A DNA stretch of 64,000 nt from Ziziphus jujuba (taxonomy: Eukaryota; Streptophyta; Magnoliopsida; Rosales; Rhamnaceae): the NCBI RefSeq assembly GCF_031755915.1, contig NC_083385.1, forward strand, positions 9,755,001-9,819,000. The letters run 5' to 3'. Of the stretch, positions 43,425 through 49,836 are shown piece after piece. The first letter of the stretch is position 1. Each line of letters starts with the position of its first letter. Made by a program: the position numbers and the translations under genes. Under the pieces are notes generated by a model that saw only the letters and a list, made by a program, of their open reading frames with translations, did no database searches and was not told where the DNA came from.

Positions 43425-43767
43425 GACCGTTAGATGAGATGAGCATGCGATAATTTAGAAGCGGTTTGATGATTCCATTTGAGAGATGAGATGATGACAT
43501 CCATAGCCCAACGAAAAGCGAAAGTGAACGAGAAGCGAGAGCGAGAGTGAGATAGATAGATAGATAGATGGAGAGAGAAAGTTAGAGAGAGAGAGAGATA
43601 AGAGTATTTTGTTCCAAAGACACAAGAGGAACTGCTCAGAGCTAAAAAGCTCAGAACCTGCAAGAAATCAGAGAAAAAAAAAAATAGATAGAGATAGAAA
43701 GAGAGAGGGAGAGAGAAAAAGAGATATGAGTTGGAAGACTTAAATTTGGGGTAGCAGCGCAGTTTGC

Positions 43768-44341: not shown

Positions 44342-45975
44342 ATGGCTGGGTTTTTCTCATTAGGAGGAGGAGGAGGAGGAGGAAGAGGTGGTTCAAGCAG
44401 CCAAGACGATCATCATCATCATCATCATCATCAGAATCCACCGCATACCGAAATTCCACCGGAGAGTTTGTTTTGGTACAAGAATGAGGACGTGCCGTAC
44501 AAAGGATTCGAGCTTTGGCATCAGCAGGAACAATTCCTCCAACTTCAACCGAGGTCTCTCCACCACCATCAGCATCATCAAGATCTTTACTCATCAGCAG
44601 TGGGTGGAACTGGTGGCTTAGGTGAAGGAGCGGGACCTAGCAGTAGGAGCTCGATCAACGTGTCTGATGAATCGTCGTCGAGATCGGCTTTCATGATGAT
44701 GAGGTCAGGAGGTGGAGGTGTGAGCTGCCAAGACTGTGGGAATCAGGCGAAGAAAGATTGCGCTCACATGCGGTGCAGGACTTGTTGTAAAAGCCGAGGG
44801 TTCGATTGTCAAACCCATGTCAAAAGCACCTGGGTCCCGGCTTCTAAGCGTCGCGAGCGACAGCAACAACTGCTTGCTTTGCAACAGCAACAACAACAAC
44901 AACAACACCACCACCAACAACACCAGCTCGAGCTTCGCGGAGGTGGAGGTGCTGGAGACAATCCCAAGAGGCTGAGAGAGAATCCCAACGCTTCTTCTTC
45001 TCTTGCCTGCACTCGTTTACCCTCCAACACTTCAGGTAAAGTTTTAAATATTTATATTTTTATATTTTGAGGAACACTCCCAACTTCAGAGAACAAGAAC
45101 AAGGAATTCTGAAAAGAGAGAAAGAGAATGACAGAGAAAAAGAAAGGAGAGAGAGAGAGTGAGAGAGAGAGAGAGGAGAGAAAGGCTCTTGGAAATATGT
45201 ATATCGTTACCTAACATAACAAAGACCATATCAGATTGCGTGTGATGGGGAAATCGACCTCCATAGTAACCCCATCAGCTTTTTTCATTCTCTCTTTTCA
45301 CTTTTCTTTTCCCAAATACTGTTATTCAGTAGTCCTGACGAATAGATTGACAGGGAAGAGACTATTTCTCTTCTTTCCGTGTCTTTCTCTTTCTCTCTCT
45401 CTCTCTCCCTCCCTCCCCCTCCCTCTCTGTGTGTTGATATCTGTGTTTTTTTTTTTTTTTTTTGCTTGCTTGCTTTTTGCGCCAGTTTTTTATACTAACA
45501 AAATTTTAAGTTATATAAAAAAAAATAATTTAATGGTGGTTTTGTTTGTGAAATTTGTATACGTGTAGGGTTGGAACTGGGAAACTTTCCGACTGAACTG
45601 AGCTCACCAGCTGTGTTTCGCTGCATAAGAGTGTCTTCCATTGAAGACGATGAGGATCAGTATGCATATCAGACGGCTGTGAACATCGGGGGCCACGTAT
45701 TCAAAGGAATTCTATACGATCAAGGCCCCGAAACTAACTATATGGGTGGCGAGAGCTCATCAGGTGGAGGTGGTGGCATCGAACCACTGAATCTGATAAC
45801 GGGCGCTGCCACGGCCACCACTGCGAGTGGTGGTGGTGGTGGTGGTGGTGGTGGAGGTGCAGCAGCAGCTTCAACTTCTTCTACGGCAGCGCTGCTTGAT
45901 CCTACATCTCTATACGCAGCTCCGCTAAACTCATTCATGGCTGGTACGCAATTCTTCCTACCCCCAAGATCTTGA
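44342..45975 (+). CDS. SRS: SHI-related sequence (SHI/STYLISH) transcription factor
   Basis: Two exons: 44342-45035 and 45569-45975, 366 residues. Order: [14 protein letters not shown] start typical of SHI/STY1, a His run, the conserved [21 protein letters not shown] segment, a RING-like zinc finger at about 128-158 ([12 protein letters not shown], then [18 protein letters not shown]), the basic [15 protein letters not shown] segment, a Gln/His run, and after the intron the family-specific IXGH domain ([20 protein letters not shown]). A Gly/Ala/Ser low-complexity tail ends [19 protein letters not shown] proteins activate auxin biosynthesis genes such as YUC4 and control style, stigma and leaf development. 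Which paralogue (SHI or STY1) it corresponds to cannot be settled by eye. Simple-repeat tracts in both the leader and the intron make length variation likely. Confidence 0.93.
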
Positions 45976-48900
45976 TGAGAAAACACACGTAGTACTCCAC
46001 ATTCTTAAGTCTCTCTTTCTTTCTCGCTCTCATTCTCATTTCTCTCTTTGGCCAACTTTTCGTTCAATGTGTCGTCGAAAAAATTGTTAGATATTAATGT
46101 TTGTAGTCACCATTAGACACCCCCCATTGATCTAGTAGGAGTGAACGACGAGAGGAGATGATGCGGAAGATGTTTTTAATTTTTGTGCAAAAATTTGAAA
46201 TATGCTTAATTTTAGTTTTTTTTTTTCTTTTTTTTTAATAATAATTTACTTTTGTCTCTTTTTAGCAGTGTCTCTGCTTGTCTTTCTTTTTTTTTTTTTT
46301 TGGTTGTTATATTTCATATATAGTGGTATTGTTTTTTTGTTTTTCTCTTCTGGGTTTGAATTGCATTTGCGTTCGGGTTGGGTTTGAACTTGGAAGCTGC
46401 TTTTTTCCTGTTTATCCGTATGTTTGCCGGTTTGAAATGGAGATGGAAACTTGCTTGGTTTCTTCTTTTGTTGGAAAAAATACAACGATTTTTTTTCATT
46501 TCGGTATTGAGAGCGGTACAGCCATGCATGAGAGCATTCAAGTCCAAAAGGCGAAGAAAACTAATTTCTCAATCTCTTTCTCTCTCCTCTTTTGCTGGAT
46601 ATGTGTATATATATATATAATATTATTTATATATGCATTAAAACATGCATAGATGTGACTAAAATGTTGAAATGGGAAATGTTGCATAACATCTCTCTTG
46701 TTTAATGCACCTGCAGGAAGGTTATCCATATAGAAATGCTTCATTATTTGTGGTATACGTTCAGAATATGTATGCAAATTGTATGAAATGTTGCTTACTG
46801 AGTGAAAATTACAAGTTACAAAGCTTTCCTTTCAAACTTGTTATTTCATTGTTCATGCGTTAATGGCTGCATTTCATGACCTCGTTTCCCGATACAAGAA
46901 AATCCGTATAAAAAATGGTTTATTGACCTTATATATATATATATATAAATAAATGTATAATAAGCCAAATGTAGTATATTTATATATATTATTCATGGAA
47001 AACATCAATATTTGTAGCAACTATATATGCACACTCATAAAAATATATAATATTATTTGATTTTTAGATTTTATTATCAATTAACGCTGATGTGAATTTA
47101 ATCGATGGGCATATAATATACAGTTGTATACAGAAGTAATTTTTTACAGATATGATCATGTGTGTAATTATGTTTTTTGGACTTTTTTTTTTTAATAATT
47201 TAATCGTGGATTTTGAAGTCTGTAGCTGAGGGAATTAGAAGCAAAACTGATAAACCTACTACAATTGGATCTGGTGTAAATGCATACGGTGTTCATCTGA
47301 CACAAACACCCGCTTTAGCCCCTTGTATCCCATCACTTGATCAGTAGCTGTCTTTTCTGAGTATGATATATCGAAGCTATATATTTATATATGATTGATA
47401 AATATAAAAATTCTCAAATATGGTGAGAAGGATTTCTAAGGTTAATTCTATGCTTTAAATATTATATATATATATATATATATACATATATCTTAGTTTA
47501 TCAAATTAATTAATCCTATGAGGATGTATTTTCACATAATCTTATTCAAGATATTATTAAGGGGTTTAAACTTTTTATGTGTATGTTTTATGCTCTCTCT
47601 CTTCCTCTCTCTCTCTCTCTCTCTCTCATATAGCTTTTATAATGGAATCAAATTCAAATAAGTTTTGGAATATTTGATCTTGAAATGTCATTTGATATGA
47701 TGGTAAATAGACATTCTATTATATCATTCTACGTACTTTCTGTAGTTTCCAAATCCTTTTCTATAGCAAAAATTTATTAATCCCATACCTAGGACCTGAG
47801 AAAAGGTTCTTCTAATCCCAAGCCATTATGTGCCAAGCCATAACATGTTAATCTAAATCAAGTCAGTAGGTGACCTTTTTATCAGATTTGCTTTATCTAT
47901 TTGGTTTTATGGGAGGTGGGGTGGGACAAAATTTCTTGTTATGGTTTGCTTTATTTATTTGGTTTCCTGCGTGTGGATAATATTTAATTTGTGTAGGATA
48001 AGTACTATGCGGATAAATAATTTCTGATTTAGTGTTATATCTTACAAATATACGATTGAAGTTTGGACGTATAAATTTCGCATGCATCCAAAATCAGTTT
48101 GTCTAATTTTGTATTTTACTATAACTTAGTAAATGAAGTTTATAGCATGTAATTTAAATCATAGTTGAGTAAACATGCCAGATTAACTCAGAAAATGAGG
48201 TCCACGCAACTGGCACATATAATATAATTATGAAATTCACCTATATGCTTAGTTTAAACCTTTTGAAAATACACTGCATGCGGAAAATTATAATGTACAA
48301 GCTCCTTCAAGAAAATATGATACAATCATGCATCAAGCTGAGAATGAAAACAATTGGTACAAACATGAAAAAGGACTCTTTAATTGTTCCACTGACCTTT
48401 AATTATGGTATACAATGTGCATATTTGACCATTTCTGTTCGGGTACTTTTCATATGTATGTGTATATACCTTTTTCTCCAATCAGAATTGGATAGCAAAA
48501 TTACTTGGTAGGAATTCAAGAACAGAATCCCTTTGTTTCTATTTGGTGTGGTGGATTTATCAGTTTATGATCTTTTATGATGGGAATAATCACTTTTGAA
48601 ATAATCAGAATACCTTAATAAGGTACTACTAAATGACTTTTGTTTATTATTATTATTTTCTTCTTTTTGGACGAAGAGTTTTGTTTAAACTTGATGACTT
48701 GAATTCTACAGGTGGTTGTATGTGGATGACATGTCCCCTATCATAAACTAAACTAAATATGATTGAATTTGTTACAAAGAATTAAACCAGTAGATAAGAA
48801 TCCCTTGTAGTGTAATGTAAACAAACGTTTTGGACACTCAATTATGTATGTGTGAAGTTTTGTATGTGTACACCTTATTTCGTAATACTCATTCCTAGCT

Positions 48901-49015
48901 GCCTGCCCTTAGTTTGTGACAATGGATTATTTCCTTCTTGGTAAATTTCTTGGGGATAGAAAACTTTGGTAATTTGTTTTTGTTATCATTAAAGAACTAT
49001 TAGTTAAACCTCTAA

Positions 49016-49016
<1 letters not shown>

Positions 49017-49070
<54 letters not shown>
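49017..49070. repeat. (AC)n microsatellite
   Basis: About 27 AC units, ending only about 12 bp before the 5' arm of the fold-back at 49083. Confidence 0.95.
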
Positions 49071-49076
<6 letters not shown>

Positions 49077-49082
49077 GTCAGG

Positions 49083-49244
49083 TTTGCTATAGTGGATGCC
49101 TGTCCCCCATTATAGTATAGGTGTCTCACATCAGGCAGGCAACATATTGCGGGATATAAGCGCCAAGATATGAGTGTCAAAACAGATGCTGCTTGATATG
49201 AGGCGCTTACATTATGATGGGAAACAGGCATCCATTTGAGCAAA
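49083..49244 (+). ncRNA. MicroRNA-precursor-like hairpin
   Basis: Two 56-nt arms (49083-49138 and 49189-49244) are reverse complements with no gap: 43 Watson-Crick pairs, 7 G:U pairs (counted for a plus-strand RNA) and 6 mismatches, around a 50-nt terminal loop. A central block of 11 perfect pairs (tggatgcctgt) and the base tttgct are intact. For a minus-strand RNA the count would be 43 + 4 wobble with 9 mismatches, so plus is favoured. Size and mismatch pattern fit a plant MIRNA foldback. I do not recognise a known mature sequence, although the 3' arm read in reverse complement contains TTGCTCAAATG, shared with the miR828 core. A young MITE is the main alternative, but I see no target-site duplication or family terminus. 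Confidence 0.55.
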
Positions 49245-49836
49245 ACTTTATATATATATATATATATATTATAAGTTTGTATTCAGGTATGATGCATGCA
49301 TATAGACATACAAAATCTTTTGAGAAATATTAGTACATGTTATATATCATTCATGACTAGCAGAATGTTAATTCGCATACAAGTGATTACTGGTGCAAGC
49401 GAATGCACCGGTTGAAAGAGGCTATGACCGTAAAAGGAAAGATAGATATACTGATGTCTTTATAAATGATATTAAGAGTTCGAAGTCTTTTACTCTTGGA
49501 AAATGTTATTTTATATTTTGGCATTACGTGGTTTTGTCTGAATTATATTCACACAAAAATTGATGTAATATAAGGAAACCACGTATTATAAAAAGTCTCA
49601 TAAAAATGTGAATAATTATGATGAACAAAAAAGTTTCAGCATGTGAAAGCTGGGCATTGTGGGTGATGTCGAGTCAATGCAATGTGACATTTCATTTCAA
49701 CTGAAGGTGATAGCAGCAACACATAAATCTCGTAAACAGTATTATTATTTTTTTAATTCCATCTTTGTTTGTCTTTATCTGCTTGGGCAATTCTTATGAT
49801 AATGCTTCAGAATTAATGTTCCATGTGGCCTATATT

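Follow-up and report, generated by a model that had tools for sequence, protein, structure and literature searches.

Is the long fold-back in an intergenic region of the jujube (Ziziphus jujuba) genome a new MIRNA gene, as a sequence-only reading had proposed, or the relic of a small transposable element? Such fold-backs are the raw material of lineage-specific plant miRNAs, and they are also easily misread as MIRNA genes; about 134,000 imperfect inverted repeats are reported for Arabidopsis and 410,000 for rice (PMC10004981). We analysed the fold-back within the 64,000-nt stretch of DNA that contains it (hereafter, the window). The structure is real, had been correctly measured and is ordinary in kind. 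Its two arms pair without gaps, and a dinucleotide microsatellite borders it on either side. It is probably an old, small, non-autonomous DNA element of MITE-like type, targeted to microsatellites. What is new here is the position of the fold-back, wedged between (AC)27 and (TA)n, together with a weak, partial candidate for a third arm copy upstream.

To locate fold-backs, the whole 64,000-base window was scanned with ungapped 56-nt arms and loops of 3–120 nt. The fold-back starting at 49083, with a 50-nt loop, was the top one of the window, both by Watson–Crick pairs and with G:U pairs included. Its ungapped arm cores (49083–49138 and 49189–49244) form 43 Watson–Crick and seven G:U pairs, in total 50 of 56 positions, across a loop at 49139–49188, exactly as had been counted by eye. 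In 12 windows simulated with a first-order Markov model to match its composition, the maxima were 32–35 Watson–Crick pairs and 39–42 pairs with G:U, all 12 falling below the locus. An inverted-repeat search extended the plus-strand arms to 59 nt each with 76% complementarity, at 49080–49138 (5′ arm, outer end at 49080) and 49189–49247 (3′ arm), although the outermost bases match poorly. The arms thereby provide the terminal inverted repeat that is expected of a microsatellite-targeted MITE.

Next to this pairing, we analysed the predicted RNA structure. RNAfold gave −89.6 kcal/mol for the plus strand of 49060–49270, compared with −48.8 kcal/mol (sd 4.2) for shuffled sequences (z −9.73; 0 of 200 shuffles as good); this folded stretch took in the microsatellite flanks, and the AT flanks supply part of the energy. 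The minus-strand RNA of the same stretch gave −78.8 kcal/mol (z −6.75). Additional pairs were placed by RNAfold within the loop. The description of the stem as free of bulges holds for the ungapped pairing but not for the minimum-energy fold, in which a single 1-nt bulge occurs close to the outer end.

The borders of the fold-back were then compared with the dinucleotide tracts of the window, counted at six or more units. The adjoining AC tract that had been noted as (AC)27 was measured as (AC)27.5 on the plus strand at 49017–49071, stopping 8 nt short of the 5′ arm. On the right, the 3′ arm is followed, after 1 nt, by a (TA)n tract at 49249–49273 (plus strand). Thus, a dinucleotide microsatellite stands on each side, less than 10 nt from an arm end, as in microsatellite-targeted MITEs. 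Tracts of this length occupy 1.6% of the window; assuming independence, a 168-nt interval has such tracts on both sides, with a tolerance of 12 nt, at a probability of 7.6e-5. Counted directly, 14 of 63,832 interval starts qualified, ten of them being the fold-back locus and four lying at 43599–43602. Altogether, 43 dinucleotide tracts of at least six units were detected in the 64 kb, chiefly AT and AG/CT. A short palindrome, consisting of the (TA)n tract plus its edges, was also observed at 49243–49278, beside the right end of the hairpin. Microsatellite-targeted MITE families have many genomic copies, and some of their members carry 9/10-bp target-site duplications and terminal inverted repeats resembling those of an autonomous MULE. 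No target-site duplication of 9–10 bp was seen by eye at the borders of the fold-back; a TA duplication is possible, but it would be indistinguishable from the surrounding TA microsatellite.

Other copies of the arms were sought in the window. A diverged, partial match to the outer 5′ arm was detected at 48709–48747 on the plus strand, in direct orientation and about 370 nt upstream of the hairpin, with a local alignment score of 31 and small gaps; it was the best among six flank comparisons. When the arm was shuffled by dinucleotides, 5 of 300 trials reached this score in the remainder of the window, and 0 of 300 did so in the 600 nt to the left of the fold-back. Elsewhere in the window, the top chance scores of the two arms were 22 and 26 (the latter for the 3′ arm), and six plain shuffles peaked at 22–29. 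The match was missed by an ungapped 17-mer search allowing three mismatches, and in a MAFFT alignment of the three arm copies it was out of register for most of its length. The partial third arm copy at 48709–48747 is suggestive but weak; it would be in keeping with a repeated element. No further full copy of the fold-back was found within the 64 kb window. A second, decayed hairpin formed by the stretches at 48575 and 48736 was considered and rejected. These stretches are paired by RNAfold, but their arrangement is not the one that a copy of the element would have, and their 12-nt match is no better than chance (E 0.52; local shuffle P 0.023). The right flank was likewise rejected as a neighbouring copy, its similarity being not above that of shuffles.

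The divergence between the arms was also analysed. The 59-nt arms differ at 14 positions, with 11 transitions and three transversions. The transitions had been described as mostly of the kind that keeps pairing in the plus-strand RNA; this was overstated, because seven G:U against four A·C pairs are within chance (binomial P 0.27). Counting outward from the loop, the first 11 differences are all transitions, and the inner 47 nt contain no transversion. The probability of this run, which was chosen after inspection of the data, is 0.012 if transitions make up two thirds of substitutions, 0.04 at three quarters and 0.09 at four fifths, and 11 transitions among 14 differences are by themselves unremarkable (P 0.26 at two thirds). 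Such transition-rich divergence is as expected of the decay of a methylated repeat.

We compared this architecture with that of published elements. Microsatellite-targeted, non-autonomous Mutator-like elements are described as Micron in rice and as SaTar in guayule, rice, sorghum and citrus (PMC5907723), and the microsatellite-flanked elements of pineapple as mMITE (PMC8449440). The terminal inverted repeats are reported to be 40–70 bp in the microsatellite-flanked Ac-mMITE-2 of pineapple (PMC8449440) and 40–60 bp in nine of 15 families of guayule gSaTar (PMC5907723). The fold-back resembles these elements in that its 59-nt arms are within the range of 40–70 bp, with dinucleotide microsatellites on both sides, and the MITE-like reading is based on this arrangement, a terminal inverted repeat of about 59 bp within dinucleotide microsatellites being the architecture of Micron, SaTar and mMITE. 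The flanks of mMITE and SaTar are described as chiefly (TA)n, with other kinds as well, and the elements as tending to cluster (PMC8449440, PMC5907723); the microsatellites flanking gSaTar are often other than simple (TA)n and often at odds with plain cut-and-paste insertion (PMC5907723). Micron MITEs are reported to prefer (TA)n, with fewer in (CA)n (PMC12550479). In length, the fold-back, at about 170 bp, is shorter than the published mMITE (210–270 and 510–570 bp; PMC8449440) and gSaTar (about 380–1900 bp; PMC5907723). The likeness is one of architecture. Since the fold-back is short and carries no recognizable target-site duplication, and since its copies were counted in 64 kb only, we liken it to microsatellite-targeted MITEs, as which it probably behaved, and do not class it as a member.

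Three observations of unequal weight speak for an element: the microsatellite borders, the candidate third arm copy and the run of transitions. The origin that we favour would be as follows. An element of about 170 bp, consisting chiefly of terminal inverted repeat, would have been put into an (AC)n/(TA)n microsatellite, mobilized, if at all, by a transposase encoded elsewhere, and would later have decayed, chiefly via transitions. Its transcript, if made, would fold into a long, near-complete stem and would be expected to be diced into mixed 21–24-nt siRNAs and not into one precise miRNA; DCL2, DCL3 and DCL4 are described as producing mixed sizes from long near-complete stems until decay turns these into DCL1 substrates (PMC10004981). 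Movement as a transposon, repetition in the genome, transcription and dicing are all steps that we infer. At present, the fold-back most likely does nothing, or may yield occasional siRNA if it is read through from a neighbouring transcript.

The microsatellite borders provide a simple lead for classifying this fold-back, and they hint that microsatellite-targeted MITEs may extend to Rhamnaceae, the sister family of Rosaceae (PMC5179053). Micron MITEs are reported as widespread in Rosaceae; a survey covering 207 plant genomes describes Micron-like MITEs as frequent in Poaceae and Rosaceae and, apart from a few species, as missing elsewhere, and its main text does not mention Ziziphus (PMC12550479).

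As an alternative, the fold-back might have arisen by a local inverted duplication that involved no transposon, through replication slippage or template switching at the AC and TA tracts, and might never have been expressed; the candidate third copy upstream would then be a second product of one local rearrangement. Microsatellites are unstable, and here they flank both ends; moreover, the three arm copies all lie within 540 nt, with no other found in the 64 kb. Against such an event, the non-repetitive arms stop less than 10 nt from the tracts on both sides, as after an insertion, and the third copy is located outside the tracts. We regard a local duplication as unlikely.

A MIRNA gene specific to the lineage of jujube or of Rhamnaceae, including a MITE that has turned into a MIRNA gene, is also less likely than an element relic, and we consider it quite unlikely. 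In this case, a plus-strand Pol II transcript would be cut by DCL1 or DCL4, and one or two precise 21/22-nt duplexes would be released from the 59-bp stem. Plant MIRNA loci are defined by a duplex of 20–24 nt with at most five mismatches and small bulges. At the fold-back, 21/22-nt duplexes with 2-nt 3′ overhangs and one to four mismatches can be drawn in many registers, among them U-starting duplexes such as 49093–49113 with 49216–49236 (two mismatches). In addition, the plus-strand hairpin is very stable, more so than that of the minus strand, the internal loops are mostly symmetric and of 1 and 2 nt, with the single bulge noted above, and the locus is intergenic. However, a fold that is compatible with a MIRNA is equally expected of any MITE hairpin. 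The excess of plus-strand G:U pairs (7 of 11) is within chance as described above. Rfam gave no match at gathering scores across the whole window; below the threshold, eight hits were listed for 48500–49500, the best with an E value of 0.31. A new MIRNA need not belong to a known family.

Published jujube miRNAs were compared as well. Each of 24 novel jujube miRNAs (PMC5100886) showed at least seven mismatches anywhere in the hairpin on either strand, which is weak evidence because that study was based on two libraries only. None of seven arm stretches (14–16 nt, in U and T forms) was printed in the text of the papers searched; 482 novel miRNAs of jujube are reported in PMC11209981. Young plant MIRNAs are described as derived from inverted duplications or MITEs (models 1–3, PMC10004981), and the fold-back is likewise intergenic with a long, near-complete stem; it differs from such loci in being known from its sequence and predicted fold alone. 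Taken together, we found no support for a MIRNA beyond the fold itself. The flanking microsatellites favour an element over a MIRNA, and the candidate third arm copy does so more weakly. The more specific possibility that a microsatellite-targeted MITE of Rhamnaceae is turning into a MIRNA gene beside the SRS gene, giving a jujube-specific 21/22-nt miRNA, appears improbable.

The weakest alternative, that the minus strand carries a degenerate MIR828 relative, can practically be dismissed: the 11-nt run TTGCTCAAATG is indeed common to the minus-strand 5′ arm and to miR828, as had been pointed out, but this likeness lends a MIRNA no support, since the best ungapped alignment differs at 9 of 22 positions, so that the mature sequence is not conserved over 22 nt, and 189 of 500 random 211-nt stretches of the window equal or beat it. 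A run of at least 11 nt also occurred in 4 of 1,196 other overlapping 211-nt stretches of the window, and the sequence-only reading had been free to pick among many families.

Finally, we analysed the genomic setting and the coding content. An SRS gene (approximately 44342–45975, two exons joined) lies to the left of the fold-back; its protein is identical over 366 residues to FEM48_Zijuj08G0093600 of Ziziphus jujuba var. spinosa, and its first exon carries the Pfam domain DUF702. SRS proteins are developmental regulators. The neighbour on the other side, on the minus strand from about 53625, we take to be NERD1 on the word of the sequence-only reading; it gave no Pfam match above the cut-off. 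The fold-back is located in the approximately 7.6 kb that separate these two genes. The statement that no protein gene overlaps the fold-back was borne out by open frames, Pfam and a protein database. The longest open frame at the fold-back (49004–49282, minus strand, stop to stop, 92 codons) consists partly of AC repeat, and its hairpin part gave neither a Pfam match (61 aa) nor a protein-database candidate (62 aa).

An origin by inverted duplication of a protein-coding target was considered and rejected, as Pfam, PDB sequences and the protein database were all empty. One sense frame is open across the whole reversed 5′ arm and, within the 3′ arm, as far as codon 16; PDB sequences were compared with the reversed 5′-arm peptide only, with a chance match to a viral capsid protein as the best result (E 0.52), and third codon positions account for only 3 of the 14 differences between the arms. 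An exact 23-mer search against viral contigs gave 0 matches, and a bacterial promoter scan was discarded as meaningless in a plant. With respect to folding energy, a scan of 180-nt stretches in 30-nt steps on both strands detected one stretch of the second SRS exon that slightly exceeds the hairpin (−82.3 versus −82.1). The region 45661–45960, within this GC-rich exon with its glycine and alanine runs, has the lowest plus-strand energies of the window apart from the hairpin, which reflects composition and not a hairpin gene.
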